Source: an uncultured Bacteroidales bacterium
GTDB lineage: Bacteria > Bacteroidota > Bacteroidia > Bacteroidales > Paludibacteraceae
Assembly: GCA_900317885.1 (NCBI GenBank)
Contig: ONIM01000010.1
Location: 1 to 53,689 of the forward strand
Direction of reading: 5' to 3'
DNA length: 53,689 nt
Shown here: piece by piece, positions 17,145 through 42,887 of the stretch
How the letters are laid out: each line of letters begins with the position of its first letter
Position numbering within the stretch: position 1 is the stretch's first letter
Notes under the pieces: generated by a model
The model's database searches: none
Seen by the model: only the letters and a program-made list of their open reading frames with translations
What the model was told of the DNA's origin: nothing
Position numbers and translations under genes: made by a program

Positions 17145-18021
17145 ATTTCTTCAGTTGGAAGGGGAAGGAGCCGATGAGATTTCCTTCGCAGAAGAAATCG
17201 ATGGTATAGAATCCTTTCTCCACTCCGGTATTTTCGTCGAGCGGGCAGTAGCAAATGCCTGCGTAAGGCTCGCCTGTAAACTCTATCTGCTGGGTCATCG
17301 AGAAGGATATTTCTCCGCTCTCGAAGGCAAAGAGTTTTGTTTCAGACTCACCGATGAGGTCTCCGTTGGGTGTGATCACACGTACATAGAGGTCTTTAAG
17401 TCCGGGTGTACAAGTGATATTTTTTGCGATCGCGTAGTCGAATTGCAGTTTGCGCACATGGCTGGCAATGCGGGTCTTGCGGTCGTTCTTGTTGAGCATC
17501 GTGACGGTGCAAGAAGTGATCTCCAACATGGAAGCACGCGTAACGGTCTCGGTGAGTTGGGTGTTCGCCTGAGTCAGTTGTTCGTTATGCTGACGGACTT
17601 GCTGGTTCTCTTGGCGAACCTGGATATTCTCCTCCGTAAGGCGCGCGTTGGTAGCATTGAGCGAGTCAATCTGGCGGACATAATCGCGCATGACGGCACG
17701 TACGGTAGCCAGTTCTTTTTTCAGTTCCGCAATCTTACGGGCGTTAGAGGCCTTGGTGGTACGCAGTTCCTCAAGGAGATCCTGAACGCGCTGTTGCTCA
17801 CGGCTCAAGAGATCTTGGAGGCTATCGTTGCGGATATCCATCTGCTGATAGCCGTCGAACTGAAGGGCGAGATCTTCGTACTCCTCCTGCAGTTCTTCTT
17901 TCTCAATGGTCATCTGCTCCACCATCTCGTTGAGCTCCTGCCGCTGGGAGAGATTCCAGATGACGAGTCCGATGATGGCAGCCACTAATAGGATTAAAAC
18001 TATGATATATGATTTTTTCAT
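17143..18021 (-). CDS. Membrane-anchored coiled-coil protein, hypothetical
   Basis: One N-terminal membrane helix (IIVLILLVAAIIGLVIWNL) is followed by about 130 residues of coiled coil (Glu/Gln-rich, to about residue 165). A C-terminal beta domain of about 120 residues follows (SCTVTMLNKNDRKTRIASHV to FFCEGNLIGSFPFQLKK). The same architecture is frequent in Bacteroidota. Its ATG overlaps the murF stop as TAATG, so it is translated after murF. A structural envelope role is inference. Confidence 0.8.
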   Translation of the reverse strand: MKKSYIIVLILLVAAIIGLVIWNLSQRQELNEMVEQMTIEKEELQEEYEDLALQFDGYQQMDIRNDSLQDLLSREQQRVQDLLEELRTTKASNARKIAELKKELATVRAVMRDYVRQIDSLNATNARLTEENIQVRQENQQVRQHNEQLTQANTQLTETVTRASMLEITSCTVTMLNKNDRKTRIASHVRKLQFDYAIAKNITCTPGLKDLYVRVITPNGDLIGESETKLFAFESGEISFSMTQQIEFTGEPYAGICYCPLDENTGVEKGFYTIDFFCEGNLIGSFPFQLKK

Positions 18022-19271
18022 TATAGGAATGGGATTACTTTTTCTAATTGGTTCGACCGACTACCCTTGAGGAGGATGGTATATCCGCTGAGGGCTTCGG
18101 TCTGCAAGTATGCACAGAGATCTTCCACGTTGTTGAAGATGGGATACGGGGCTGTGGTCGCTTTGTATTCCTCTCCGACGAGGAGGACGCGATCGGCTTT
18201 GCGCTCAAGGAGCATGTTGACGATATTCTGATGCTCGAGATGGCTGTACTCGCCGAGTTCTCGCATGGCGCCGAGGATATAGGCCTTCGGCATTTGTGAT
18301 TTATGATTTATGATTTGTGATTTGTCAAAAGCGTTTATAGCTGCGGTCATGGAGGTAGGGTTGGCGTTATAGGCATCCACGACAACCGTGTTGCGCCCGG
18401 TCTGCATGAGTTGGGAACGGTTGTTGGAGGGAATATAGGCGCGGATAGCTGCTAACGCCGCTTCCTCGCTCACGCCAAAATAGCGTCCGACACAGATTGC
18501 TGCCGAGACGTTCTCGGCATTGTAACCTCCGACCAGATGGGTGTCTGAAGGCATTGAGCCGGTGTGATACTCCACGGTTTTCAAGTCTCCTGCCATTTGC
18601 GCCAAGTACGGGTTATCGATGTTTCGGAAACAGAAACCATTATGCGCGCGAAGGAAATCGTATAACTCGGCTTTGGTACGCATGACACCTTCAAAAGAGC
18701 CGAATCCCTGCAGATGTGCTTTGCCGACGTTGGTAATGAGGCCGTAGTTCGGTTCGGCTATCTCCACCAGTTCTTTGATGTCTCCGGGATGCGACGCGCC
18801 CATCTCCACAATCGCCATCTCGTGCGCGCGCGTTATAGATAATAAGGTGAGGGGCACGCCAATCTGGTTGTTGAGATTGCCTTGGGTGTAATAGAGGTTG
18901 TACTTCGTAGAGAGGACAGCGGCACAAAGCTCTTTGGTTGTTGTCTTTCCGTTCGTGCCGGTGATGCCGAGGATCGGCAGAGCGAGTTCACGCCGCCAAG
19001 CGCGGGCGAGGTCTTGAAGCAAGCCTACCCCCGCCCCCTCCCTGAAGGGAAGGGAGATACGTTCTTTATATTCGGCAGGAAGAAGATTATACTTCTCTTT
19101 ATCTTCCATCAAAACCCACTCTGCCCCTTGACGGAAGGCTTGCTCCACGAAGTCGTTACCGTCGAAGTGTTCCCCTTTGAGCGCAACAAAGATAGAGCCG
19201 GAAGTGACCTTCCGGCTATCTGTCGTTACGTGCAGGGATTCCTTATTTTTTATTAGGAAGTTCCAGTCCAT
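18021..19271 (-). CDS. murF: UDP-N-acetylmuramoyl-tripeptide--D-alanyl-D-alanine ligase (MurF)
   Basis: The ATG at 19271 (MDWNFLIKNKESLHVTTDSR) gives 416 residues and overlaps the end of the MFS gene by 29 bases. Signatures: TTDSRKVTSGSIFVALKGEHFDGN, the ATP loop GITGTNGKTTTKEL near residue 105, and GYNAENVSAAI. It adds D-Ala-D-Ala to the peptidoglycan precursor in the cytoplasm. Two foreign-looking inserts are present: RISLPFREGAGVGLLQ from a G/C-rich micro-repeat and KSQIINHKSQ from a heptamer array, both in-frame. Confidence 0.93.
   Translation of the reverse strand: MDWNFLIKNKESLHVTTDSRKVTSGSIFVALKGEHFDGNDFVEQAFRQGAEWVLMEDKEKYNLLPAEYKERISLPFREGAGVGLLQDLARAWRRELALPILGITGTNGKTTTKELCAAVLSTKYNLYYTQGNLNNQIGVPLTLLSITRAHEMAIVEMGASHPGDIKELVEIAEPNYGLITNVGKAHLQGFGSFEGVMRTKAELYDFLRAHNGFCFRNIDNPYLAQMAGDLKTVEYHTGSMPSDTHLVGGYNAENVSAAICVGRYFGVSEEAALAAIRAYIPSNNRSQLMQTGRNTVVVDAYNANPTSMTAAINAFDKSQIINHKSQMPKAYILGAMRELGEYSHLEHQNIVNMLLERKADRVLLVGEEYKATTAPYPIFNNVEDLCAYLQTEALSGYTILLKGSRSNQLEKVIPFL
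18291..18325. repeat. Heptamer array inside murF
   Basis: Five units in register: CATTTGT, GATTTAT, GATTTAT, GATTTGT, GATTTGT. It encodes KSQIINHKSQM on the minus strand, between DAYNANPTSM and KAYILGAMRELG. Confidence 0.85.
19020..19058. repeat. G/C-rich quasi-palindrome inside murF
   Basis: On the minus strand, 37 of 39 bases are identical to 31705-31743 in murI. Core CCCTTCAGGG with flanking G runs. In murF it is read as SLPFREGAGVGL; in murI the same DNA is read one frame over. Confidence 0.9.
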
Positions 19272-20613
19272 AGTTTTTACGTTTATCCTCCACTTTGAGG
19301 GCGAGGGACAATAAGAATGCCAGTACGCCGAACGAAGCAAAGACAATCATAGGCACGAGGTATCCGTCGGTAGCCACACGCAGTTTGCCGATGAGCAGCG
19401 GCACGAGACAGAGACCGATATTCTGCACCCAGAAAATCAGGCAATACGCAGAGCCGAGCACTTTCTCGTCGATGATCTTCGGCACGGAGGGCCACATGGA
19501 TGCAGGTACGAGCGAGAAGCTGACACCGAGTACCAGAATAGTGATCAGTGCGAGCGTCTTCGAGGGATAGAGCGGTAAGACAAATGCGAAGACACTATGG
19601 CAAGCGATCATGATCACAGCTCCCAAAAGCATCATCGATGCACCTTTGCCTTTGTAATCTATGAAGGCACCGAGGAACGGCGTGAGTACCATTGCGAGTA
19701 TCGGGAACCACTTGAAGAGTCCAGCTGCCTCGGCATTGGAGATGGCGAGTGTCTCTTCCAGGAAGTTCGTTGCGAAACGCTGGAAGGGGAAGATTGCGGA
19801 GTAATAGAGTACGCAGAGGAGTGCGATGATCCAGAACATCTTCGAGGTCAAGATCTGCTTGAGGTCGGAAACGTGGAACTCGTCCTCCGGATCTTTCTCC
19901 AGAGTAGCCTCTCCGATAGCCACAAGTTGGGAATCGAAGGACTTATCCATGATCGTGAAGACAAAGAAATTGAGCAGACCGATGACAAGGAGCGCTGATG
20001 CAAAGAGCAGCGGAGCGGTAACTGAATTAACACCATCCACCGCGAAGTGCTGGCTGATCATCGGGGAGAGCCACATCGCTCCGAAGACGCCGAGACGTGC
20101 GATAGCCATCTCCAAGCCCATAGCGAGCGCCATCTCTTTGCCTTTGAACCATTTCGCAAGGACCTTACTAACCGTCGTTCCAGCCATCTCACAGCCGCAG
20201 CCGAAGATCATGAATCCGAACATCGCCAGTTTGGCGGAACCGGGCATAGAAGGCCACCATGCGTTAAGCCATTCAACGGTATTGGCGTCCGCCCAGGAGA
20301 TGCCCCAGAACTTGATGGCTGCGCCGATCACCATGAGTGAAGCGGATAGCAATCCGGTGAAACGGACTCCCATCTTATCGAGGATGATACCAGCGATGAT
20401 GAGGAAACCGAAGACGTTCAGCAGGTACTCACCCGCGGCATAAGTTCCAAACACGCCCTGATCCCATCCCAGCGTGTCGTTGAGCAGGGAAGCCAGCGGC
20501 GAGAGGATATCTACGAACATGTAAGCGAAGAACATCATCGAAGCCACTAGGACCAGGACTGTCCAACGCGCCACAGCGCTATCGCGAAGGGTCTTTTGGA
20601 GTTTTTCTACCAT
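19243..20613 (-). CDS. MFS transporter
   Basis: The 456-residue protein has twelve predicted membrane segments. Typical MFS features are visible: the helix 2-3 loop with DKMGVRF near residue 80, and a central cytoplasmic loop of about 40 residues (EATLEKDPEDEFHVSDLKQILTS region). It resembles the nitrate/oxalate-type or uncharacterised Bacteroidota MFS group; the substrate is unknown. Its end overlaps the murF start, so it heads a coupled unit with murF. Confidence 0.85.
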   Translation of the reverse strand: MVEKLQKTLRDSAVARWTVLVLVASMMFFAYMFVDILSPLASLLNDTLGWDQGVFGTYAAGEYLLNVFGFLIIAGIILDKMGVRFTGLLSASLMVIGAAIKFWGISWADANTVEWLNAWWPSMPGSAKLAMFGFMIFGCGCEMAGTTVSKVLAKWFKGKEMALAMGLEMAIARLGVFGAMWLSPMISQHFAVDGVNSVTAPLLFASALLVIGLLNFFVFTIMDKSFDSQLVAIGEATLEKDPEDEFHVSDLKQILTSKMFWIIALLCVLYYSAIFPFQRFATNFLEETLAISNAEAAGLFKWFPILAMVLTPFLGAFIDYKGKGASMMLLGAVIMIACHSVFAFVLPLYPSKTLALITILVLGVSFSLVPASMWPSVPKIIDEKVLGSAYCLIFWVQNIGLCLVPLLIGKLRVATDGYLVPMIVFASFGVLAFLLSLALKVEDKRKNYGLELPNKK

Positions 20614-20704
20614 AATTGTAGGAATATGAATTTTTCTTTTTTAGCCACTCAGCCTTTTTCTTCTCGTACTCGGCGTAGTGGGATTCCAAATAGCCGTCAG
20701 CCAT
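20579..20704 (-). CDS. Small Lys-rich protein (41 aa) coupled to skp
   Basis: ATG at 20704 shares one base with the stop of the upstream Skp-like gene (TAATG), strong evidence for translational coupling. The peptide starts MADGYLESHYAEYEKKKAEW and ends in a Lys-rich tail; it overlaps the MFS start by 35 bases. Small proteins with YLE...YEKKKAEWLKKK motifs recur beside Bacteroidales genes but have no assigned function. Confidence 0.6.
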   Translation of the reverse strand: MADGYLESHYAEYEKKKAEWLKKKNSYSYNYGRKTPKDPSR

Positions 20705-21195
20705 TATTTGATGCCGAGTTCTTTTTTGACAGCCGGTGTAACATCGCTGGCATCAGCTCCGATATGAACCATAGCCTGGCTATCGAAGATATAGGTATAT
20801 CCTTCGCGCTCGCCGACAGCCTTGATCGCCTTAGCCATCTTCTCGTGCACGGGAGTCAGGAGTTCCTGTTGCTTACGCTGGATATCCTGCTCTGCAGTCT
20901 GATAGAAGAGCTGGATGCGCTGCTGCATCTCCTGAAGCTCCTGCTGGCGGATTTGTTTTACTGCGTCAGCCATGGTAGCCTCCTGCGCCTGGTAGTCCTG
21001 CGCTTTCTTCTGTATCTCCTCGTTCATGGAAGCGAGTTGGGTCTCGTACTGGTTCTGGATGGTATCCATTTTCAGTTTTACCTGTGCTACTTCGGGCATC
21101 TGCGCGAAGAGTTCCTGGGTGTTGATGTGACCAAATTTCTGTGCGCTGGCAAGCATCGGCAGAGCCAGCATGAGAGTGATGATAATTTTTTTCAT
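20704..21195 (-). CDS. Skp/OmpH-family periplasmic chaperone (second copy)
   Basis: A signal peptide (MKKIIITLMLALPMLASAQ) is followed by an OmpH-type fold. The N-terminal strand is KFGHINTQELFAQMPEV, a long coiled-coil tentacle runs over residues about 40-115, and the C-terminal strand is GYTYIFDSQAMVHIG. Length 163 is typical. It keeps unfolded outer-membrane proteins soluble for BamA, encoded upstream. It is separated from the first copy by a structured gap at 21233-21299. Confidence 0.88.
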   Translation of the reverse strand: MKKIIITLMLALPMLASAQKFGHINTQELFAQMPEVAQVKLKMDTIQNQYETQLASMNEEIQKKAQDYQAQEATMADAVKQIRQQELQEMQQRIQLFYQTAEQDIQRKQQELLTPVHEKMAKAIKAVGEREGYTYIFDSQAMVHIGADASDVTPAVKKELGIK

Positions 21196-21232
21196 TTTTT
21201 CGATATTTTATATTATTTATTACGTTTTGAAA

Positions 21233-21299
21233 TGTTCCACGACCCTTATTTAAGTCTTACTTGAGTCTTACTTAAGTCTTACTTGCCTTCCGTGGAACA
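21233..21299. repeat. Hairpin enclosing three 11-bp tandem repeats between the skp genes
   Basis: TGTTCCACG (21233-21241) and CGTGGAACA (21291-21299) are perfect inverted arms. Inside are TAAGTCTTACT, TGAGTCTTACT and TAAGTCTTACT (21251-21283). It fills the gap between two co-directional skp genes. Confidence 0.75.
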
Positions 21300-21305
21300 A
21301 TCTTA

Positions 21306-21824
21306 TTATTTTGCGCCGAGTTTGCGGAGTACCTGATCGGAGATGTCGAGTTTGGAGGACATATAGATCAGGGATGGGTCTGCAGAGCGGTCCTTGACGA
21401 TGTCGATCCGTTTCTCGTTGGCGAGATCCTGGATGGCCGTGTATATCTCGTCCTGGATGGGTTTGATGAGCGCTTCGCGTTTCTTGTATAGTTCACCCTC
21501 CTGTCCGAAATACTTGCGTTTGAGTTCCAGGACTTCCTGTTCTTTTTTCACGATCTCCTGCTCGCGTTGGGTCCGCATGGTCTCCGAGAGGAAGATCTGC
21601 TCCGTTTGGTAGTTGGTAGCCATGACGCGTGCTTCCTGTTGGGCCGCGTCTATCTCCTTCTGCCACCGCTTGGAGAGCATCGAAAGCTGCTCATTCGCCT
21701 GCTCGTATTGGGGCAGGTTTTTGAGGATATACGCCATGTCGATATAGGCTATCGATTGGTCTTTAGCAAAAGTTGTGCCAGAAGCCATTACGGCAATCAA
21801 TAATAGGATAATAATTCTTTTCAT
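21306..21824 (-). CDS. Skp/OmpH-family periplasmic chaperone (first copy)
   Basis: The start at 21824 (MKRIIILLLIAVMASGTTFA) gives 172 residues. After the signal peptide comes SIAYIDMAYILKNLPQYEQA, then a long coiled coil, and the C-terminal beta part KRIDIVKDRSADPSLIYM. It lies 5 bases after bamA. With the second copy it forms a tandem pair as in many Bacteroidota. Confidence 0.88.
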   Translation of the reverse strand: MKRIIILLLIAVMASGTTFAKDQSIAYIDMAYILKNLPQYEQANEQLSMLSKRWQKEIDAAQQEARVMATNYQTEQIFLSETMRTQREQEIVKKEQEVLELKRKYFGQEGELYKKREALIKPIQDEIYTAIQDLANEKRIDIVKDRSADPSLIYMSSKLDISDQVLRKLGAK

Positions 21825-21829
21825 AATCT

Positions 21830-24424
21830 TTATAGTTCTTGTCCGAGGACGAAGTGGAACTGGCTTCCGCCGTATTGTTTGGAGCCGTTGATCTCGTCGA
21901 ATCCCCATCCCCAGTCAATACCGAGGAGTCCGAACATCGGCAGGAAGATACGTACACCCAAGCCGGCTGAACGCTTGAGGTTGAAGGGGTTGTAGTCTTT
22001 GATATCCGAGAAGCAGTTACCGGCCTCGAGGAAGACGTGCGCCCAGATGGTAGCATTCTGCTCCAGAGAGATCGGGTAACGGAGCTCCATGGTGAATTTG
22101 TTATAAAGGTAACCCATATTACGTCCGGTAGCCACGTCGTACGGGGTAAGTGAACCGGATGAGTAACCACGCATAGCGACATACTCGGTAGCGTAGCTGG
22201 TATAGCTAGACATACCATCACCACCCATATAGAAGGACTCAAACGGGGATTTAGCATACTGGTTGTAGTGGCCCAGATAACCAAACTCCGCACGGGTCAT
22301 GAGGACCAGTTTGCTGTCGCGCGTAAGCGGCGTGAAGACCTTTCCGGAGAACTTCCACTTATGATACTCGATGAGGTGGTACTTCTCGGAAGTGGAGAGT
22401 TGGGAGTAGTCTTTCTTGTTAAAGAGCGACCAAGGCGGCGTAAGTTTGACACCGATGGTGAACTGCGAACCGCGGCGTGTGTAGATCGGGTTATCGATGG
22501 ACGAACGGGATATCTGCAGGTTCAGGGCGAGGTTATGAGAGGTACCATCGGAGATCAGCAAGTACGGCCAATCCTTCATCATATACATCTGATAACTCAG
22601 TTCGCCGTAGAAGGTGAAGTAGTCGTCGGGCCAGCGGAGACGCTTACCATAACCGACCGAGATACCGAGCGTACGGAGGTATTTATCCTTATCCGCCTCA
22701 GACTCCGCGAGCTGCTGGTAGTAGTTGCTGTTTCCGGAGTAGTAATAGTAGTTGGAATAGGTGTTATAGAGGTTCTGGTAGGCGCGTTGGTAACGGCTGG
22801 AGTAACCCGTCTGGTTGGCGAAATAGATACTTGCGCTCAAGCTGTTCGGGCGCTTACCACCGAGCCAAGGCTCCAAGAAGGAGATGGAGGCGGAGGTATA
22901 ATAGATACCGTTCGTGCGCGCGTTAATAGAGAAGGTCTGACCCTCACCCTGCGGCACGATGCGGTAGGATTTCTTATTGAAGAGGTTCTGGATGGCGAAG
23001 TTGGTGAACTTGAGTCCCAGAGAGCCCACGAGACCCGTTGCGCCCCAACCGAGTGAGAACTCAATCTGGTCGGAGGACTTGGTCTCCAGCTGGTAGGTGA
23101 TGTCCACGGTTCCCTCTTCGGGGTTCGGCTGGATATCCGGCACAAGTTTCTCCTGGTCAAAATGGCCCATCTGCGCCAACTCACGGAGCGAACGCATAAT
23201 ATCCGACTGCGAGTAGAGCTGACCGGGTTTGGTATATAACTCACGGCGGACAACATGCTCATAAACGCGGGTGTTTCCGACAATCTTGACCTCGTTGATG
23301 GTAGCGGGTTTGCCTTCGTACATACGCATCTCAAAGTCGATGGAGTCGTTGGAGACGTTGACCTCGACGGGCTCGACGTTGAAGAAGAGGTAACCGCGGT
23401 CGGTATAGAGTTTGGATACCGCATCGTCGTCGTTGGTGAGACGGTCGTTGAGAGTCTTGAGGTTATAGACATCGCCGGGTTTGACACCCAGAGTAGCGTC
23501 CAGCAGTTCGTACGGATAGACGGTATTGCCAACCCATTTGACAGAGCGGACGTAGTATTTGTCACCCTCGCTGATGGTCATATAGATATCCACACGGTTC
23601 GGGTCCTCAGGGTTCGGGACGACACTATCCGCCACGATATAAGCGTCGCGGAAACCATGCTCGTTATACTTCTCGATAACCGCCTGTTTGTCCTTCTCAT
23701 ACTCCTCGCGAACGAATTTCTTGGTCCGAAAGAGGTTGACGATATCGTTATCATTGGTTTTCTTCATCGCCTTGTTGATCTGGCGATGGGTGAGGTTCTT
23801 GTTGCCGGTGATATAGATCTTTCCGACCTTGGTTTTGGACTTTTTATCCACGCCGATGAGGACTTTGACGTAGCCCGGATGGTCGGCATCGTTGCGCTGG
23901 ATGACATGCACTTCGGCGTTATGGAAACCTTTCTCCGCAAGGTATTTCTTGATTACCGTTTTCGCATGATCCTCGAGGTTGGGCGTCATCTGCGAGCCCT
24001 GCCGGATACCGGCTTTCACCTCCACGTCCTCGCGCTCGCTTTTCTTGAGTCCTTCGTAGCGCACTTCGCTGATACGGGGCCGTTGCTCCAACTCAATAAC
24101 CAGCCATATCTTGGTGCCTTCGATCTTCTTCGCTTTGATCTTGACGGAGGAGAAGAGTCCTTGCTTCCAGAAGCGTTTGATAGCCTTGGTGATCTGGTCT
24201 CCCGGCACTTCAATCTTATCGCCGACCGCCAAGCCGGAGAAACCGATAAGCACGAAATCCTCGTAGCTATCGGCGCCCTGCACCTCGATGCCCGCGATCT
24301 CGTAGGTCTTACGCGTCATACCGTATTCGATCTCAGGTACATCAGCGGCAGGCACAGAGTCGTTCTGCGCCCACAAGCCAAGACTGAATACCAGCAATAA
24401 TAGTATATTAATGAATCTGTTCAC
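21830..24424 (-). CDS. bamA: Outer membrane protein assembly factor BamA
   Basis: The likely start is GTG at 24424 (read [20 protein letters not shown]), inside the end of uppS; the longer frame lacks a plausible start. The 864-residue protein has five POTRA domains (about residues 40-420) followed by a C-terminal 16-strand barrel. The lid-loop motif is visible as [11 protein letters not shown] and the end reads [13 protein letters not shown]. It inserts barrel proteins into the outer membrane. Its neighbours uppS and two skp genes match the conserved envelope cluster. Confidence 0.93.
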
Positions 24425-25148
24425 TCGTTTTGCCAAATCTTCGTTCACGTTTCTGATAGTCCACGATTGCCTTATAGAACTCCTCGTCGGTAAACTCCGG
24501 CCAGAGGCAATCGGTGAAGTATAGCTCACTATAAGCCAACTGCCACAACAGGAAATTGCTGATACGATACTCGCCGCTGGTACGAATCAGGAGGTCGGGA
24601 TCCGGCATCTCGCGGGTCGTCATAAGGGAGCTGACCATCTGCTCGGTTACATCCTCCGGACGGAGTTGGCCGGCCTGGGTGAGGCGAACGGCCTCGCGTA
24701 CCGCCTCGATGATCTCCCACCGCGCGGAATAACTGAGGGCGATGACCATCGTCAGGCCGGTATTGCGGCTGGTTTGGTCTATACACGCAAGAAATTTCTG
24801 CTTCGTTCCCTCCGGGAGGCGGTTGATATCACCGATGGTCTGGAGGCGGACGTTGTTATTCATCAGCGTCGGCGTCTCCTTGGCGATCGTGTCCACCAGG
24901 AGCGTCATGAGGGCGTCCACCTCCTCCTTCGGGCGGTTCCAATTCTCCGTAGAGAAGGTATAGAGCGTGAGATACTCAATACCGAGTTTGGTAGCAGCCA
25001 CGGTAATATTATGGACGGTCTCCACGCCCTTTTTATGTCCAAACATACGCGCCAGGCCTTGCTTCTTAGCCCATCGGCCGTTGCCGTCCATGATGATCGC
25101 CACGTGACGTGGAAGACGCGCTGTGTCTATTTGTTCTTTATAGCTCAT
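24408..25148 (-). CDS. uppS: Isoprenyl transferase (undecaprenyl diphosphate synthase)
   Basis: The start at 25148 ([20 protein letters not shown]) gives 246 residues. Signatures of the cis-prenyltransferase family: [14 protein letters not shown] with the catalytic Asp, [13 protein letters not shown], and [19 protein letters not shown]. It makes the C55 lipid carrier for peptidoglycan. A longer frame upstream uses a non-ATG start and is not preferred. It overlaps bamA by 17 bases. Confidence 0.94.
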
Positions 25149-25152
25149 TGTA

Positions 25153-25869
25153 TCAGAAATTACAAATCCTGCACGCTTTTTTCGCCTGTGCAAATTCAAA
25201 AACTATGCCAAGTGTGACCATTCCGGTCAAGTCGCAGTTCATTATATTACTTCCGTTCAAGTCATGACGGTTATTGAGATCCGGTCTATTCTCCAAGTTA
25301 TCAGCGAAATAGACGTTATGCTGCCACGCGATATTCAGACCCACTTGCTCGTGGAATTTCCATTTGAATCCGATGCCGAAAGGGAAATACGCCATCACTT
25401 TGTTATAATTGGCGTTCTGATAGCCCTCGGCGCCATAGAGCCCCACTCCGAGGCCCAGGAAAATATACGGGGTATAGGGCCGGATACGCTTGTCGTACTT
25501 ATTCCGGTCTCCAAAACGGAAGAAGTTGAACTCCGCCATGACGTCGGCATTGATGAGTTGGTTTTGCCATTTGGAATCCAGCTTCACAGGCATCTTCCCG
25601 GTCTCGAAATAGTACTCGTTTCCGGTAATACGCTGGGAGGAGAACTTCGCCTGAATCGCCCACCGTTTCGTGAACTTATAGCGGAAATGCAAGCCGAATG
25701 CCTCGCGGGGGTTCATGAAAATATGCTGCGCGGCGTTGCCTACATAATAGCCGCAGCCACCTTGCAAGCCGAATTCACAGAGGAACGGCTGGCCCTGCGC
25801 ACGAACGCTCATACTCGCACACGCGAGCAATAAAAATAGACATATTATGCGGCTGTTTTTAGACATCAT
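25153..25869 (-). CDS. DUF6089-type outer-membrane beta-barrel protein
   Basis: The likely start is one of two adjacent ATGs at 25869/25866; an upstream TTG lies at the expected transcription start. A signal peptide ([17 protein letters not shown]) precedes a barrel of about eight strands rich in Gly, Tyr and Phe ([43 protein letters not shown]). DUF6089 proteins typically lie next to uppS-bamA, as here. It is first in the operon after the promoter at 25885-25915. Confidence 0.82.
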
Positions 25870-25884
25870 TACAAAATAAGCGTG

Positions 25885-25915
25885 CAAAGATACACATTTT
25901 TTCTCACATACGCAA
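25885..25915 (-). promoter_or_regulatory. Promoter of the DUF6089-uppS-bamA-skp-skp operon
   Basis: Minus-strand TTGC (25912-25915), 19 bp, TATCTTTG (25885-25892). Confidence 0.8.
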
Positions 25916-25939
25916 GAAAAAAAGACATTTTTGCACGAT

Positions 25940-27304
25940 TTATGCCTTAATCAGCAGCCTAAAAGCGTCTGTAACTTTCCTTACAGGAACCACTTCGATG
26001 GAAAAACGTGAAAAATCGCCTTTCTGGTCGGCAGGAATGATGATGCGTTTGAAGCCGAGTTTCTGCGCCTCAGCGATGCGTTGTTCGATGCGGTTGACAG
26101 AGCGGATCTCTCCGGCTAATCCCACTTCGCCGCAGAGACAGGTAGCAGCATCGAGGGCGATATCCATATTACTGCTCAAGACGGCAGCAAGAACCGCGAG
26201 GTCGATAGCGGTATCATCGACGCGGAGACCTCCGGCGATATTGAGGAAGACATCTTTCTGCAGCAGTTTGAAACCCACGCGCTTCTCCAAGACAGCCAGA
26301 AGCATGTTCAGACGCCTTCCGTCAAAGCCCGTAGAGGAGCGTTGGGGTGTGCCGTACGCTGCGGAGGAGACAAGGGCTTGCACCTCGATCATGAACGGCC
26401 GGACACCTTCTACTGCCGCTGCGATAGCGATGCCGGAGAGGCCTTCGCGCGCCGTGGAAAGGAGCAGTTCAGAGGGGTTGGTCACTTCGCGTAAGCCATC
26501 CTGCCGCATCTCATAGATGCCGAGTTCGGAGGTAGAACCGAAACGGTTCTTCTGCGCCCGGAGAATGCGGTACATATACTGGCGGTCGCCCTCGAACTGA
26601 AGGACGGTATCGACGATGTGCTCCAGCACTTTGGGTCCCGCAAGCGAACCCTCTTTGTTGATGTGACCGATGATGATAAAGGGTATGTTGCGCGTCTTGG
26701 CGAACTCCATGATCCGCGCGGCGCACTCTTTGACCTGCGTGAGGCTGCCGATAGTCGCTTCGACGGCTTCGGTTCCGATGGTCTGGATGGAGTCGATGAC
26801 CACGACGTCGGGTTCGAGTTCCTTGACCTGCTCCAGGATGCGCTCGAGCGAGGTCTCCGAGGATATATAGAGGTTCTCGGCGTTTCCCGCAAGGCGTTCG
26901 GCGCGCAGTTTGAGTTGGCGGACGGACTCTTCGCCGGAAGCGTAGAAAGTCTTCCGCTCGCCTTGCTGCATAAGCACCTGAAGCGCGAGAGTGGATTTGC
27001 CGATACCCGGTTCGCCACCCAGAAGCACAAGGCTTCCCGGCACGAGACCTCCTCCCAAGACGCGGTTCAGTTCACCGTTATGCAGGTCAATACGCATCTC
27101 GTCGGTGGCCACTACTTCTTGCAACCTTTGCGGGTGGACAGACAGCCCCGGACGGCTTTGAGCGAAGCGGTCTTTTGTCTTTCGACTTTCGACTATCTCC
27201 TCCTCATACGTCCCCCACTCTCCGCAGACCGGGCAGCGTCCGAGCATCTGCGGGGCTTTTGCGCCGCAGGATGAGCAGACATATTGGATGGAGGGCTTTG
27301 CCAT
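25940..27304 (-). CDS. radA: DNA repair protein RadA (Sms)
   Basis: The 454-residue protein has the N-terminal zinc finger (CSSCGAKAP...GRCPVCGEW), a RecA-like ATPase with Walker A GGEPGIGKST near residue 97, the RadA-specific KNRFG motif near 250, and a Lon-protease-like C-terminal domain. It drives branch migration in recombination. A repeat-derived insert (VESRKTKDRFAQSRPG, residues about 38-53) lies between zinc finger and ATPase. Confidence 0.94.
   Translation of the reverse strand: MAKPSIQYVCSSCGAKAPQMLGRCPVCGEWGTYEEEIVESRKTKDRFAQSRPGLSVHPQRLQEVVATDEMRIDLHNGELNRVLGGGLVPGSLVLLGGEPGIGKSTLALQVLMQQGERKTFYASGEESVRQLKLRAERLAGNAENLYISSETSLERILEQVKELEPDVVVIDSIQTIGTEAVEATIGSLTQVKECAARIMEFAKTRNIPFIIIGHINKEGSLAGPKVLEHIVDTVLQFEGDRQYMYRILRAQKNRFGSTSELGIYEMRQDGLREVTNPSELLLSTAREGLSGIAIAAAVEGVRPFMIEVQALVSSAAYGTPQRSSTGFDGRRLNMLLAVLEKRVGFKLLQKDVFLNIAGGLRVDDTAIDLAVLAAVLSSNMDIALDAATCLCGEVGLAGEIRSVNRIEQRIAEAQKLGFKRIIIPADQKGDFSRFSIEVVPVRKVTDAFRLLIKA
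27155..27193. repeat. Micro-repeats inside radA
   Basis: Three heptamers (TTTTGTC, TTTCGAC, TTTCGAC at 27173-27193) adjoin TTTGAGCGAAGCGGTC, a sequence that also occurs at 30138-30186 between dnaN and DUF4954. Confidence 0.75.
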
Positions 27305-27337
27305 AGGGGGTTATGGGTTAGGGGATTAGGGGTTAGA
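27303..27337. repeat. Heptamer array between rnz and radA
   Basis: Five units: ATAGGGG, GTTATGG, GTTAGGG, GATTAGG, GGTTAGA. It spans from the radA start codon into the stop codon of rnz. Confidence 0.8.
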
Positions 27338-28142
27338 GGGGTATCACATCATTTTCCTCGGCGAGGAGAGTGTTCTCGAAGATGGGTTTGGCTTCCGCGA
27401 GGAAGAGCGAGTGGTCTTCGATCCGCGCGGAATAATGGCCGAGAATCAACTTGCCGGCCTTCGCCAGAGAAGCAATCTTCGCCGCGTCCGCAGCGGTAGA
27501 GTGTTGCACCTCTTTGCTCCGCCCAGCGAGGGTCTGCAGGAAGGTGGACTCGTGATAAAGCGTCCCGACGCCTTCGATGATCGGAACGATCTTCTCGCTG
27601 TACATCGTATCGGAGCAGTACGCGTAGCGTTTCTTCGTCTCATAACTGAACGTGCCATCCTCATGCTTGACGCGGTGGGTCTCTTTGAAGAGAAAACCGC
27701 AAGTCGGCACCCCGTGCTTGAGCGGGATGGTCTCCACGGAAACGGTGCGATCCTCGAAGATCACTTCGTGTTTGCGGGGGTTGATGGGATGGAAGATGAT
27801 GTCGTAGAGACGGTCGTTGGCGTGATAGTTCAGCAGCGGCGTAAGCAGTTTCTCCAAATCCGGATGGGCGTAGATATGCATCGGCTGCGTGCGTTTGAGC
27901 ATGCCGAGCGTCGTCAGAAGCCCGATGAGACCGAAACAATGGTCTCCATGGAGATGGGAGATGAAGATATTATACAGCCGCCCGGTGTGAACACCGAGCC
28001 GCTGCATGGTCAGCAGCACTCCTTCGCCGCAATCGACGAGGAAGGACTTGTCGCACAGCTCCACCAACTGCCCCGATGGGGAAGTGGTTTTTGTCGGCTT
28101 TGCGCTGCCGCAACCTAATATCGTTACTTTCGCTTCGCTCAT
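27333..28142 (-). CDS. rnz: Ribonuclease Z
   Basis: A metallo-beta-lactamase-fold protein of 269 residues, somewhat shorter than the usual 300 or so. It shows the metal motif SHLHGDH near residue 62, and the conserved LKHGVPTCGFLF and GKLILGHYSAR blocks. It trims tRNA 3' ends; none of the tRNAs here encode CCA, consistent with its use. It starts 5 bases after the DUF4954 stop, with a heptamer array at the junction. Confidence 0.9.
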   Translation of the reverse strand: MSEAKVTILGCGSAKPTKTTSPSGQLVELCDKSFLVDCGEGVLLTMQRLGVHTGRLYNIFISHLHGDHCFGLIGLLTTLGMLKRTQPMHIYAHPDLEKLLTPLLNYHANDRLYDIIFHPINPRKHEVIFEDRTVSVETIPLKHGVPTCGFLFKETHRVKHEDGTFSYETKKRYAYCSDTMYSEKIVPIIEGVGTLYHESTFLQTLAGRSKEVQHSTAADAAKIASLAKAGKLILGHYSARIEDHSLFLAEAKPIFENTLLAEENDVIPL

Positions 28143-28144
28143 GC

Positions 28145-28172
28145 TGATTACTGATGGCTGACAGCTGACAGC
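28145..28172. repeat. Heptamer array at the DUF4954 / rnz junction
   Basis: TGATTAC, TGATGGC, TGACAGC, TGACAGC, in register. It covers the last codons of the DUF4954 gene (RLSAVSHQ) and runs to 3 bases before the rnz start codon. Confidence 0.75.
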
Positions 28173-30133
28173 CTTTCTAATATCCTATTGCCGAGGGCGG
28201 TCTTTTTCTCGATATGTTCGAGGACGGCTTTGACAAACGAGTTGGACTCAAACGATCCGCGCACCTCTTCGAAGTCCGCTTCCGCTTGTTCGCGGTCGCC
28301 ATCGACGCCGAAGCCCGTCTGGCTGTTGAGGTCGAACTCTTTGCGGGCATCGTCATAGACCATCCGGTCAAGTTTGACTACCGCGTCACGCCAAGACTCG
28401 ATGGTCTGACGGATCTGCGGAAGGGTCACTTCGCTGACCGGACAACCCCACACCTGTTCGAGTTTGTCGAGCGCCCAGGTCCACTCGTAAGAGTAGTAGT
28501 TCGCGTGCATCTGCTCCATGCATGTCTGGATCGCTTCGAGGCTCATTTGTCCGGCTTCGATGGCGTCCAGCATCTTCGTCACTTCGCCACGCGGAGCGAT
28601 CAGACCTGCCATATCGACCCAGTCTCCCAAGCCTGCCCGGCTATCGGGCTGCAAGGCCGCACGTACCTCTTCGATCGTCTTCCATTCCTTCTTCTCCAGC
28701 CGGCTGATGAGGCTGTTTCCGAGGAATTTCTGGATGCCGATGGTATAGAGTTCGCGTCCGTGCTTGAGGGACGAGTTACGGATCTTACAGTTCCTGTAAC
28801 CATAGACCTCGGTGTTCTCGCCGCTGAGGGCTTGCAGTTCATCCAACACCTCGCGTCCGCGCCACATCTTCTGGACCGTATAAGGGCTCAGGAGGTTGAA
28901 ATTGATCTGGTCGAGCTTGTGCGGATCCTTGCGGTTGTCACGCTTCGGCCATTTCTGCGCGTCACGGATCGTACCTACGGTACGCAGGTTCGCGCCGGGT
29001 ACCAAATAACTCTCAGAGTTATTCTCTATGAGGTACGAGAAGGGCAGATCGGAGGTGTCGGCGTGGTGGGTGTGACGTCCCATAACAAGGGAGAAGGCCC
29101 CCACTCTGGACGGCCAGAGCAGATAACTGTCGCTGGTCGTTTTCGCGCCGCGTTCGGCGATACCCTGGTGAATAGGACCGAGTTTGTACATGTGGTTCGA
29201 CTGGTTCGAACCCGAACCGGCGTTCAGGAAAGAGAACATACCGGCAATCAACAAAGTCGATTTATGGTGGGTCACGGTATAAGGACCTGCGAAGATTGCA
29301 CAGGCCTCTCCGTGCATGCCCTGGCAGTTACTAAAGAACAGACTCTCGCCCGCAGAGTAGTGCTTGTCGAAGATGCATCCCTGCCCCACGAAGCACTTGT
29401 CCACCAGCGTCGAGTCGCCAATCTCTACGCCCGAGGCGATGATAAAATCCGTACACTTGACACCGCTGCCGAGCCGTACAGGAGCCGCTTCGTTGGAGTT
29501 GATTGTTCCGTTCTTGAGACGGCTCACACCGGTCAGTTCGGCAAAATCGCCGACCTTGACATTCTTGATCGAACCGCAGTTGAGGATGTGTACGTTGTTG
29601 CCGATGTAGCCATGATCGGAAGCCTGCGCTTCTGCGTACTCGTCGATGCGGCGCTCCAACTCATGAATCATCGCCGGACGGTGACGGTAGAGCGTGAGGA
29701 TATATGCCAGGCTGGCGGAGAGCTCATTGAAAATCGGGATCTCCCGTCCGCCGCCTTCGTTCATCACCGGCACGCGAACCCCGTTGCCGAAAGTCGTCTT
29801 GCGGTCCACGAGGATGGCGTTGACGTTCTCGATACAGGTGTTGTCGCCGATGTGATAGTTGGCGATATAGTTATGGATGTTATAGAGGTGCGCATCATTG
29901 CCCACTTCGCAGTTATGCAAGGTGGCGTTATAGATGCCCGAATGGATCTTCAGCCCACCCGGCAGGGTTATCTCCCGTTTGAATGCTCCCAGACGGTTAT
30001 GACCGGAGAAACGGGTGTGATGCACGTAGCGCGCGTCGAACGCTTCCGCCACCTCTATCTCCGCCCAGTTCTCCGCCGAGCAGCCCTGTGCCTCCAATAC
30101 CCGAATCTCTTCGGACGTTAATTTACGAAACAT
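28148..30133 (-). CDS. DUF4954 family protein (left-handed beta-helix, NTP-transferase-like)
   Basis: The 661-residue protein has imperfect hexapeptide repeats (GVRVPVMNEGG, ILNCGSIKNVKVGDFAELTG, LGSGVKCTDFIIASGVEIGD) forming a left-handed beta-helix in the first two thirds. A mostly helical C-terminal third follows. This matches DUF4954, found in Bacteroidota and spirochaetes and related in shape to sugar-nucleotide acyltransferases. No activity is known. It follows dnaN in the same direction with a repeat-filled gap. Confidence 0.85.
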   Translation of the reverse strand: MFRKLTSEEIRVLEAQGCSAENWAEIEVAEAFDARYVHHTRFSGHNRLGAFKREITLPGGLKIHSGIYNATLHNCEVGNDAHLYNIHNYIANYHIGDNTCIENVNAILVDRKTTFGNGVRVPVMNEGGGREIPIFNELSASLAYILTLYRHRPAMIHELERRIDEYAEAQASDHGYIGNNVHILNCGSIKNVKVGDFAELTGVSRLKNGTINSNEAAPVRLGSGVKCTDFIIASGVEIGDSTLVDKCFVGQGCIFDKHYSAGESLFFSNCQGMHGEACAIFAGPYTVTHHKSTLLIAGMFSFLNAGSGSNQSNHMYKLGPIHQGIAERGAKTTSDSYLLWPSRVGAFSLVMGRHTHHADTSDLPFSYLIENNSESYLVPGANLRTVGTIRDAQKWPKRDNRKDPHKLDQINFNLLSPYTVQKMWRGREVLDELQALSGENTEVYGYRNCKIRNSSLKHGRELYTIGIQKFLGNSLISRLEKKEWKTIEEVRAALQPDSRAGLGDWVDMAGLIAPRGEVTKMLDAIEAGQMSLEAIQTCMEQMHANYYSYEWTWALDKLEQVWGCPVSEVTLPQIRQTIESWRDAVVKLDRMVYDDARKEFDLNSQTGFGVDGDREQAEADFEEVRGSFESNSFVKAVLEHIEKKTALGNRILERLSAVSHQ

Positions 30134-30137
30134 TCTC

Positions 30138-30186
30138 GTCTTTTGTCTTTGAGTGAAACGGTCTTTTGTCTTTGAGCGAAGCGGTC
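30138..30186. repeat. 23-bp tandem repeat between dnaN and DUF4954
   Basis: Two 23-bp units (30138-30160 and 30161-30183), each GTCTTTTGTCTTTGAG plus GAAACG or GAAGCG type endings. The array fills the gap from the DUF4954 start codon to the dnaN stop. The same sequence occurs inside radA. Confidence 0.8.
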
Positions 30187-30188
30187 TA

Positions 30189-31313
30189 TTAGTCGTTCAG
30201 CAACATCGGCATCAGCAACATGAGGACATCTTCGTTCTCCTCGTTCTCTGCCGGCAGAATCAGACCTGCGCGAGCCGGGTCAGCCAGCTTCAGCAGGACA
30301 TCTGCGGAAGTGATGGAGCTGAGCAAATCAATCAGGAACGGCGCCTTGAAACCGATTGCCATCGGCGTGCCGTTGTAGTCGCATGCGATTGTCTCCTCTG
30401 CGCTGGTCGAGAAATCGATGTCCTGTGCGGAGATCTTGATCTGGTTCTCGCTGAGCGCCAGACGCAGCTGTGCGGTACCGTTGTTGGCGAAGACCGCCAC
30501 ACGCTTACAAGCGTTGATGAGGGTCTGACGGTCGATGGTTACGACGTTCTGGTTCGCCTGCGGGATGACGGCGTTATAGTTCGGGAAGCGGCCCTCGATC
30601 TGGCGGCAAACCACAATCGTGTTGTCGAACTCGAAGCGCGCGTTCTTAGCACCGAAAGTCACTTTCACATCCTCGTCAGCCTTCGCCAGGAGGTTCTTCA
30701 AGAGGCTTGCCGGTTTTTTCGGCAGGATGAAACTTGCAGCCACGCCGGCTTTAACACCCTCGTTCGTGTAACGAACCAGACGGTGCGCGTCGGTAGCTAC
30801 CATCGTCACTTTGTCCTCGGCGATGTCAAAGAAAATACCGTTCATCACAGGACGCAACTCATCGTCCGCGGTGCAGAAGATCGTCTTCTCAATCGCGCTC
30901 TGGAGCACGCCGGCAGGCATGTTCACCACCTTCGCGTCACCCTCAGCCTCCGGCATCTCCGGATACTCGTTGCCGTTCACGCCGACAAACGAATAGGTAC
31001 CGTTCTGGCTAACCATGTTCACCGCAAAATTATTCTCGTCGATGGTGAAGGCCAGCGGTTGCTCGCTGAACTCCTTGAGGGTCTCTAACAACAACTTAGC
31101 CGCCGAAGCCACTTTGCCGCTACCTTCTACGCCCTCAACCTCTACAGAGGTACGAATGGTGGTCTCGCCGTCGGAAGCCGTCAGACGCAGCTCGTTGCCC
31201 GCCAAATCAAACAGCACGTCATCCAGAATCGGAAGCGCATTTTTACTGTTAATCACGCGGCTCACAGCCTGCAATTGGGAAAAGAGTTTTGAACTCGAAA
31301 CATTGAATTTCAT
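30189..31313 (-). CDS. dnaN: DNA polymerase III sliding clamp, beta subunit
   Basis: The 374-residue protein has the three-domain clamp layout, with clamp signatures LRLTASDGETTI near residue 52, ATDAHRLVRY near 170 and the C-terminal LLMPMLLND (the MPMR-like end). It tethers DNA polymerase III to DNA. It is not next to dnaA or recF here; instead it leads into DUF4954, rnz and radA. It shares a divergent promoter region with murI. Confidence 0.95.
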   Translation of the reverse strand: MKFNVSSSKLFSQLQAVSRVINSKNALPILDDVLFDLAGNELRLTASDGETTIRTSVEVEGVEGSGKVASAAKLLLETLKEFSEQPLAFTIDENNFAVNMVSQNGTYSFVGVNGNEYPEMPEAEGDAKVVNMPAGVLQSAIEKTIFCTADDELRPVMNGIFFDIAEDKVTMVATDAHRLVRYTNEGVKAGVAASFILPKKPASLLKNLLAKADEDVKVTFGAKNARFEFDNTIVVCRQIEGRFPNYNAVIPQANQNVVTIDRQTLINACKRVAVFANNGTAQLRLALSENQIKISAQDIDFSTSAEETIACDYNGTPMAIGFKAPFLIDLLSSITSADVLLKLADPARAGLILPAENEENEDVLMLLMPMLLND

Positions 31314-31370
31314 ATACGTATATTTTTAATTATTTTTTACAATTTATTGTAATTTTCACATTTTAGCGTG

Positions 31371-31401
31371 CAAAGATACAATTTTTTTCTGATATACGCA
31401 A
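31371..31401 (-). promoter_or_regulatory. Promoter of dnaN
   Basis: Minus-strand TTGC (31398-31401), 19 bp, TATCTTTG (31371-31378). Confidence 0.82.
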
Positions 31402-31408
31402 GAAAAAT

Positions 31409-31439
31409 TTGGATATTTGCAAAAAAAGTAGTACTTTTG
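31409..31439 (+). promoter_or_regulatory. Promoter of murI
   Basis: TTGG (31409-31412), 19 bp, TACTTTTG (31432-31439). It is back-to-back with the dnaN promoter, with 7 bases between their -33 boxes. Confidence 0.78.
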
Positions 31440-31448
31440 CAGCGAATT

Positions 31449-32357
31449 ATGGCAAAAATCGGTATTTTTGACAGCGGTTATGGCGGTTTGACCATCTTGG
31501 AAGCGATCCGTCGGGAGTTACCTCAGTACGACTACTTGTACCTGGGGGACAACGCCCGTGCGCCGTATGGCACGCACTCGTTCGATGTTATTTACCGATA
31601 TACGCTGCAGGCGGTCAAATACCTCTTCTCCCAAGATTGCGCGTTGGTCATTTTGGCTTGCAATACCGCCTCTGCCAAAGCCCTCCGCACCATCCAACAA
31701 AAAAATCTCCCTTCCCTTCAGGGAGGGGCTGGGGGTAGGCTTGTTAACGTGCTGGGAGTAATCCGTCCGACGGTAGAAGCCGTGCCGGCAATCACCAAGA
31801 CAGGCCACATAGGCATCCTCGCCACCCCGGCTACCGTCTCCTCCGAGAGCTATGTCCTGGAATTGGAAAAACTGTCTGTCAGCAAAGCGGTCTGTCAGCA
31901 AAGCGGTCTGTACTCTGTCAGCCCGCAGGGCGGTCTTATCATTACCCAACAGGCTTGTCCCCTTTGGGTGCCATTAATCGAGAACGGCGAGCACCTCAAC
32001 CCCGGTGCAGACTATTTCGTGGATCTCTACCTGCGGCAGATTTTAGAGAAGGACCCGCAGATTGACACCCTCATTCTCGGCTGCACCCACTATCCGCTGT
32101 TGCTGCCGAAGATCAGTCAATGGATTCGCAACAACGGCAAACGCTTTGCGGCGAGCGATATTCAGGTCATTTCGCAGGGGTACCTGGAAGCAAAGAGCCT
32201 GGCGGATTATCTGGTTCGTCATCCGGAATATGCGTCCCAGCTCTCGCAAGGCGGTAGTTGCCGCTACCTGACCACAGAAAATGCGGACCGCTTCTCGCAA
32301 TCCGCATCGCTCTTCCTCTCCTCCCCCGTCCAGGCGGAGCACATTGATCTGGAGTAA
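31449..32357 (+). CDS. murI: Glutamate racemase
   Basis: The start at 31449 (MAKIGIFDSGYGGLTILEAI) gives 302 residues. Catalytic cysteines are in VILACNTASAKA near residue 77 and TLILGCTHYPLLLPK near 212; substrate contacts include FDSGYGG. It makes D-glutamate for peptidoglycan. It is about 30 residues longer than usual owing to two repeat-derived inserts: LPSLQGGAGGRL (31705-31743), sharing DNA with murF, and SVSKAVCQQSGLYSVSPQGG (31874-31932). Confidence 0.93.
   Translation: MAKIGIFDSGYGGLTILEAIRRELPQYDYLYLGDNARAPYGTHSFDVIYRYTLQAVKYLFSQDCALVILACNTASAKALRTIQQKNLPSLQGGAGGRLVNVLGVIRPTVEAVPAITKTGHIGILATPATVSSESYVLELEKLSVSKAVCQQSGLYSVSPQGGLIITQQACPLWVPLIENGEHLNPGADYFVDLYLRQILEKDPQIDTLILGCTHYPLLLPKISQWIRNNGKRFAASDIQVISQGYLEAKSLADYLVRHPEYASQLSQGGSCRYLTTENADRFSQSASLFLSSPVQAEHIDLE
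31705..31743. repeat. G/C-rich quasi-palindrome inside murI
   Basis: 37/39 identical to the minus strand of 19020-19058 in murF. Here it is read as LPSLQGGAGGRL. The insert lies between RTIQQKN and VNVLGVIRPTVEAV, where other MurI proteins have a short loop. Confidence 0.9.
31874..31932. repeat. 16-bp tandem repeat inside murI
   Basis: GTCTGTCAGCAAAGCG occurs twice in tandem (31874-31889, 31890-31905), followed by a longer diverged unit ending GGGCG. It shares AGCRAAGCGGTC with the repeats at 27155 and 30138. It encodes an in-frame insert before ITQQACPLW. Confidence 0.8.
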
Positions 32358-41736: not shown

Positions 41737-41741
41737 ATTAT

Positions 41742-41762
41742 GATTTATGATTTATGATTTTA
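41742..41762. repeat. Heptamer array at the sufB start
   Basis: GATTTAT, GATTTAT, GATTTTA, ending five bases from the presumed TTG start codon. Confidence 0.75.
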
Positions 41763-42855: not shown

Positions 42856-42859
42856 TGGG

Positions 42860-42887
42860 GATTTATGATTTAGGATTTATGATTTAT
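42860..42887. repeat. Heptamer array between rlmI and the exonuclease
   Basis: GATTTAT, GATTTAG, GATTTAT, GATTTAT in exact register. It runs from 4 bases upstream of the exonuclease start codon into the rlmI stop codon (TAA within the last unit). Confidence 0.85.

Follow-up and report, generated by a model that had tools for sequence, protein, structure and literature searches.

How did murF and murI, two genes whose products match different Pfam families, come to carry nearly the same 39 bases of DNA and to read them in different frames? Both lie in a 53,689-nucleotide stretch (the window) of contig ONIM01000010.1, assembly GCA_900317885.1, from an uncultured Bacteroidales bacterium of the Paludibacteraceae. 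The bases at 19020-19058 (minus strand, in murF) and 31705-31743 (plus strand, in murI) are identical at 37 of 39 positions (95%). An initial annotation had reported this match, and direct comparison of the two stretches bears it out; the translations and phase confirm that the reading frames differ, the shared bases being translated as ISLPFREGAGVGL in MurF (minus strand) and as LPSLQGGAGGRL in MurI. We refer to the family that includes both copies as R1. In our reading, R1 is very probably (roughly 0.82) an interspersed hairpin repeat resembling the Rickettsia palindromic elements (RPEs) and the repetitive extragenic palindromes (REPs), found in genes and between genes and kept where a variable loop tolerates it. 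The two copies and their host genes are as follows.

18021..19346, minus strand: murF host gene; open reading frame (ORF) with a TTG start; Pfam Mur_ligase, Mur_ligase_M, and Mur_ligase_C
19020..19058, minus strand: R1-family palindromic repeat in murF, sense to the gene; read SLPFREGAGVGL; 49.1 bits
19035..19054, minus strand: hairpin within the R1 copy in murF; stem and TTCA loop as in the murI copy, at the same alignment columns
31449..32357, plus strand: murI host gene, glutamate racemase; the Pfam Asp_Glu_race match covers the R1 element
31705..31743, plus strand: R1-family palindromic repeat in murI, sense to the gene; read LPSLQGGAGGRL; 51.3 bits
31709..31728, plus strand: hairpin within the R1 copy in murI; stem of 8 pairs closed by a TTCA loop; columns 3-10 of the model pair with 15-22

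Allowing three mismatches at most, a 21-base core pattern matches the window twice, versus 0.01 matches expected, and two matches were reached in 0 of 100 shuffles. Scanning the window with filters off and with the R1 model, which was built from six copies including these two, gives the scores listed above and ≤4.3 bits at all remaining places. Related copies had also been proposed in rlmI (43531-43574), in the S37 gene (2611-2650), and possibly in rlmL, and this part of the proposal does not hold. The rlmI and S37 stretches score 2.4 bits (E 9.0) and 2.5 bits (E 8.6), respectively, and are rejected as members by score; by eye they share with R1 the general build alone, a C-rich arm, TTGA or TTTA, a G-rich arm, and a G-rich tail. 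The window scan yielded no R1 copy in rlmL, at which no separate search was aimed.

Anatomy and distribution of R1

The R1 consensus is an imperfect palindrome of ∼36 bases, with a hairpin of the form CCCYTCCY-TTYA-GGGARGGG and, after it, a G-rich tail whose last bases are TAGGC. In an alignment of 122 matches (95 distinct rows, 730 cells), the 8-pair stem, which mostly encloses a TTCA or TTTA loop, has standard pairs in 97.4% of the cells, and pairing falls to 47.5 to 83.4% when the partner is slid by one to three columns. Variation within the stem is one-sided: at pair 6-19, 52 rows have T.G, 21 have T.A, 19 have C.G, and none has C.A, and the three variable stem pairs together have T.G in 86 cells versus C.A in 2. 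This asymmetry hints that one particular strand folds, with few independent events behind it. The right end, GGC, is nearly invariant across the 62 copies in the genome of the window (see below), and the flanks are biased, with A or T at position -2 in 58 of the copies (P 2e-13) and pyrimidines prevailing in the six bases immediately right of the element (P 4e-10). To the left of the hairpin the sequence is A/T rich and then CT, and GTAG is found solely 3', within the G-rich tail. Terminal inverted repeats are present in none of the 62 copies at 7 or 8 bases (≤1 mismatch) and in two at 5 or 6 bases. Target-site duplications, sought as 2- to 5-base repeats at 16 offsets, show no clear excess over shuffled flanks, the observed values being reached by 90, 54, 494, and 356 of 500 shuffles. 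No Rfam family matches the stretch 31600-31850 of the window at E ≤ 1.

The genome that carries the window (G000; 2,119,167 bases in 89 contigs, 88.78% completeness) has 82 R1 matches at E ≤ 10, of which 62 are at E ≤ 1e-3. This search scored 150 of 372 candidates, and copy numbers and negatives are bounded accordingly. The family is thus not unique to murF and murI, and the 62 copies, in several frames and on both strands, support the initial proposal of a dispersed DNA element rather than a protein motif. The count includes near-duplicate stretches on contigs C40 and C47, with two facing R1 copies each, which are either paralogous genes or an assembly duplicate. R1 is present in 16 of 41 genomes, all from the genus of the window, and in none of the 16 genomes of other genera in that set. 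A survey of the 178 genomes of the genus, with 38 candidates scored per genome, places it in 109 at E ≤ 1e-6, with up to 35 matches per genome. When the order was sampled evenly, with 17 candidates scored in each genome, 3 of 393 genomes had R1 at E ≤ 1e-5, all three from the same genus; the listing of the 390 without a match covers 20. The family has so far been seen in one genus.

A degenerate pattern run against named genomes returned 31 stretches, in records titled as metagenome genomes of Bacteroidales type (Bacteroidales, Prevotellaceae, Paludibacteraceae, Bacteroidaceae, Prevotella, and Bacteroidia). The phage records and plasmid records that were scanned have no R1 match, and a pattern scan of viral contigs gave two stretches. 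We note that on one viral contig (L192:3314-3345) the element is near the end of a 213-residue ORF, and R1 may travel with phage. Literature searches by title and abstract, with subscription papers outside their scope, turned up no account of such elements in this order.

R1 within genes and protein loops

More than half of the copies in G000 (34 of 62) are strictly intragenic by a codon score, meaning that the same frame and strand are favored on both sides of the element; the score was trained on 26 window ORFs and validated on its own training ORFs alone (176 of 184 pieces). For the remaining 28, the location is near the end of a gene, between genes, or ambiguous. Of the 34 intragenic copies, 32 are read in a frame that stays open across the element, whereas counting the open frames of each copy gives an expectation of 18.7 (indicative P 2e-7); the other two have a stop inside the element. 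In other genomes of the genus, 48 copies show the same: 19 are strictly intragenic (10 sense and 9 antisense), and 19 of 19 are open versus 12 expected (indicative P 1e-4). The intragenic copies in G000 comprise 24 in sense and 10 in antisense to the host gene and fall into five frame classes. These classes were recounted by eye, as automatic labels had misfiled antisense PSLKG readings as sense; there are three sense classes, of the LPSLQGG (11 copies), SLPFREG (8 copies), and TPFPSGEG (5 copies) types, and mainly two antisense classes, of the KPTPSPSLKG and AYPRPLPEGKG types, plus shortened mixtures. The suggestion that the element is open in more than one frame is correct in that several frames are used, although one sense phase is open in only 17 of the 62 copies and one antisense phase in 5.

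Twenty host ORFs were chosen from the strictly intragenic set, and 18 match a Pfam family. By these matches the hosts are DapB, MurF, LpdA, ComEC-type, alpha-amylase, signal peptidase, aminopeptidase P-type, KdsD-type, and DUF5686 proteins, together with MurI, MurB, PrmC, ArgS, KorA-type, Dus, a THUMP-like protein, a GH32 enzyme, and HisS. Several of these enzymes are usually essential. R1 resides within genes almost solely in open frames, and at places that are also variable in length among relatives.

Several ORFs in G000 have a copy in the same linker before a C-terminal tail (C43:6205, C75:1503, C45:85649, C86:456, C49:82839, and C38:19449). These ORFs are of 186 to 538 residues, and the tail is KILRDGQLYI-like, perhaps a type IX secretion tail; the S37-gene stretch at 2611-2650 is similarly placed in its gene. 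Another ORF, of 681 residues (L015, 603-2648, minus strand), has three copies, at its hydrophobic N terminus, in the middle, and near the C terminus.

Absence from orthologues had been set as a check on the element, and neither the murI nor the murF site has R1 in the relatives compared: it is absent from the murI site in 28 of 28 other genomes and from the murF site in 28 of 28 relatives with sequence covering the site. One relative (G024) has an R1 copy in a different murF loop. At three sites in ribD, two of them weak in G000, R1 is absent from 25 relatives; among 17 relatives, G007 alone has R1 at prmC site 1, where it adjoins another repeat; and the copy at lpdA site 2 is common to G000 and G006 among the relatives compared. 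Within the genomes sampled, the murI and murF copies are lineage-specific gains, the reverse of the outcome that would have refuted the initial proposal.

A plain insertion is too simple, however, as an account of how these copies relate to the native proteins. Loop lengths were compared at nine sites, six of which have scored copies (murI, murF, ribD site 1, prmC site 1, and lpdA sites 1 and 2); because the relatives may themselves carry inserts, for which they were unscreened and which pull the medians down, the shortest relative of the same genus was used instead. That relative is shorter than G000 by 7 residues at murI, 9 at ribD site 1, 6 at prmC site 1, 3 at lpdA site 1, and 8 at lpdA site 2. 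The element codes for 12 to 13 residues, and the shortest relative is fewer than 12 residues shorter at five of the six scored sites, so native residues have been replaced. By this comparison, in which the assignments of loops rest on alignments, R1 takes the place of native residues at those five sites and the net growth is less than the element. The initial annotation is partly supported, in that R1 is a dispersed DNA element, though simple insertion does not fully describe it. At the nucleotide level, two sequences (L251 and L264) with flanks 96.5% identical over 300 bases have, by eye, ∼40 native bases corresponding to ∼48 element-bearing bases. The native bases may be lost during insertion itself or through later trimming of the old loop. 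The other three sites have weak or unscored relatives of R1: ribD sites 2 and 3 reach 14.4 bits (E 0.06) and 19.2 bits (E 0.002), respectively, and the insert at prmC site 2, SLPLKGKGRERG, has no R1 match in the G000 search and was read by eye. Median length differences at these sites (ribD 2, ribD 3, and prmC 2) are 14, 10, and 8 residues, and relatives shorter by at least 12 residues number 13 of 17 at ribD site 2 and 1 of 17 at ribD site 3.

LpdA shows how these loops turn over. In 103 species of the genus, taken from 129 matches that were not all fetched, differences in LpdA length are concentrated in a few loops. Site 1 has a native 21-residue form in 82 of the 103, R1 in 5, and other fillings in 16; by eye, 10 of these 16 are other G/C palindromes and 3 are GCGAAGCG-type repeats. 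R1 is antisense at this site in G000, G062, G180, and G154 and sense, in another frame, in G061; at site 2 it is sense in G000 and G006 and antisense in G180 and G154. In a FastTree tree of 354 loop-free codons, one clade with support of 1.0 unites G000 (antisense R1), G061 (sense R1), L256 and L254 (native), and L253 (another palindrome), its inner branches being poorly supported, and G180 and G154 group with native L264 (support 0.998). The filled site 1 loop is nearly identical in G000 and in G180 and G154, on different branches, which suggests that recombination between species may also move these loops.

Origin of R1 and its relation to known repeats

Compared with miniature inverted-repeat transposable elements, R1 differs in having neither terminal inverted repeats nor target-site duplications. 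The small dispersed repeats of cyanobacteria are very small mobile repeats that also occur within genes; by description only, R1 is like them in its very small size and its presence in genes, in a different phylum. RPEs are palindromic repeats found in frame in many unrelated protein genes of one genus, as far as the available portions of PMC10969869 and PMC3733652 describe them; those of ∼150 bp are described in PMC10969869, and RPE-4 and RPE-6 are equated with small REPs in PMC3733652. R1 is like these elements, so described, in lying in frame in unrelated genes, in its palindromic hairpin, and in a copy number that varies among species. It differs in its length of ∼36 bp (a comparison with the ∼150-bp RPEs by description), in using both strands, in replacing native loop residues at most scored sites, in sharing its loops with other repeats, and in its host, a Bacteroidales genus as opposed to an intracellular alphaproteobacterium. 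The analogy with RPEs drawn initially is sound for behavior and does not establish membership of that family.

In size, the nearest elements are the GTAG/CGTC REPs, for which the portions of PMC3733652 available describe hairpins of 20 to 40 bp, often species specific, mostly between genes with some in genes, and tagged at one end by unpaired GTAG or CGTC, the CGTC type being reported in Bacteroidetes among other phyla. R1 is likewise a short hairpin but has no unpaired 5' GTAG or CGTC tag, its GTAG being in the tail 3' of the hairpin, and it is not predominantly extragenic. Judged on these partial descriptions, R1 would be nearest to RPEs in behavior and to REPs in size; we file it as a protein-coding palindromic repeat, and by description it looks like a family separate from the RPEs.

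As to how R1 spreads, it would multiply as a single-stranded hairpin, acted on by a RAYT (REP-associated tyrosine transposase)- or IS200-like nuclease supplied in trans or by a repair process; selection would then discard landings that break the frame or the fold, and further insertion, deletion, and recombination between species would keep turning over the loops. A more specific version, that R1 is the REP of a RAYT (TnpA-REP) transposase, with a cognate Y1 HUH nuclease of the genus mobilizing it, is doubtful. It would suit a small hairpin with neither terminal inverted repeats nor target-site duplications, the one-sided T.G wobble, and the biased flanks, and the genus does have RAYT-like genes: PF01797 was sought in 41 genomes, 25 of them from the 178 of the genus, and of 15 matches one locus per matching genus genome was taken, giving 11 loci and 33,081 bases. 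Some 14-mer recurs at least three times in 6 of these 11 loci, and R1 is found in none of them. The single RAYT-like match in G000 contains TAG, and a different repeat, of 36 bases, lies on both sides of it and within it (L007:743-819, 1973-2097, and, inside the ORF, ∼1471-1506; CTCTGTGCATTTTTGTC...GCGACAA type). RAYT subclasses 2.4 and 2.6 are abundant in, or mostly in, Bacteroidetes, and subclass 2.4 is reported with REPs inside its own genes, in the portions of PMC6006769 available; by analogy this pattern fits the repeat in L007, not R1. R1 copy number also fails to track the presence of RAYT, with 29 copies and no PF01797 match in G006 (84% completeness) and no copy in G009, which has the best match of the genus, and the 5' foot of R1 lacks GT[AG]G.

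Somewhat less doubtful, though still unlikely, is that hairpin DNA is patched into breaks or stalled forks by repair or replication, replacing tens of bases with no dedicated transposase. Native loop DNA is missing at the element, both in the L251/L264 pair and in the loop-length comparison, target-site duplications are not seen, and the same loops in close species are filled by quite different sequences, all of which patching would explain; the conserved GGC end and the nonrandom flanks instead suggest an enzyme that recognizes ends. An artifact of assembly or binning in a metagenome-derived genome is highly improbable: G000 is in 89 contigs, is incomplete, and has the C40/C47 near-duplicates, yet R1 turns up again in 109 of the 178 genomes surveyed in the genus and in named records of different projects, and many copies are within open ORFs. 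Least credible of all is convergence at the protein level, with Gly/Pro-rich loop peptides arising independently and only resembling one another as DNA. The copies do encode Gly/Pro/charged stretches, but one and the same DNA, read in several frames and from either strand, gives different peptides, and selection on peptides could not explain a 37/39 DNA match between stretches that encode different ones.

Several observations count against an interspersed hairpin repeat maintained in tolerant loops. The search for a mobilizing enzyme gave none, R1 is absent from the 11 RAYT loci and has 29 copies in G006 with no PF01797 match, and among genomes sampled at one per species there is no within-species pair with and without a copy, leaving present-day movement unsupported. 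Covariation in the stem is weak (97.4% paired versus 96.8% in within-column shuffles), with one cell altered on both sides versus 0.7 in shuffles. Single-strand DNA folding of the consensus and of the 39-mers is no more stable than that of shuffles, and our claim is therefore limited to kept pairing. The P values for open frames assume independence whereas the copies are related, which makes them indicative. The murF loop differs by up to 22 residues, with 6 of 21 relatives at least 12 residues shorter, so that replacement is unsupported there, and loop replacement could be two steps. We nevertheless retain the hairpin repeat as the best explanation, and within proteins R1 probably has no functional role and amounts to tolerated filler.

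Other repeats in the same genes and significance

The two host genes have further repeats in other loops.

18291..18337, no strand assigned: second murF loop repeat, GATTTATGATTT type (family D8); read KSQIINHKSQ; extra residues versus most relatives shown
31892..31918, no strand assigned: second murI loop repeat, AGCAAAGCGGTC type (family D11); read SKAVCQQSGLYSV; extra residues versus nearly all relatives shown

Short repeats of the GATTTATGATTT type are also present elsewhere in the window, at 41728-41760 and 42853-42885. A second dispersed repeat, of the AGCGAAGCGGTCTTTTGTC type, is at 27156-27182, 30147-30196, and 31892-31918, the last being the second variable MurI loop, and a similar type is present in LpdA loops of other species (L258, L302, and L305). 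It is conceivable, if unlikely on present indications, that the whole genus undergoes loop exchange, in which several unrelated families of short repeats, R1 among them, time and again replace, rather than just enter, the same surface loops of core enzymes with removal of target bases.

The effect of palindromic repeats on Rickettsia proteins is said to be unexplored in the available portions of PMC10969869. Protein-coding palindromic repeats are known above all from Rickettsia, and the same behavior is seen here in a gut-metagenome genus for which 178 genomes allow sites to be traced at fine evolutionary steps. One LpdA hairpin has native, sense-element, antisense-element, and other-palindrome forms in one tight clade, which makes it testable where core enzymes have loops that tolerate foreign residues and whether such repeats enter by clean insertion or by replacement. 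If loop exchange is true, sister species would trade whole protein hairpin loops with one another, and the rate at which loops evolve would be governed by a mobile-DNA mechanism.

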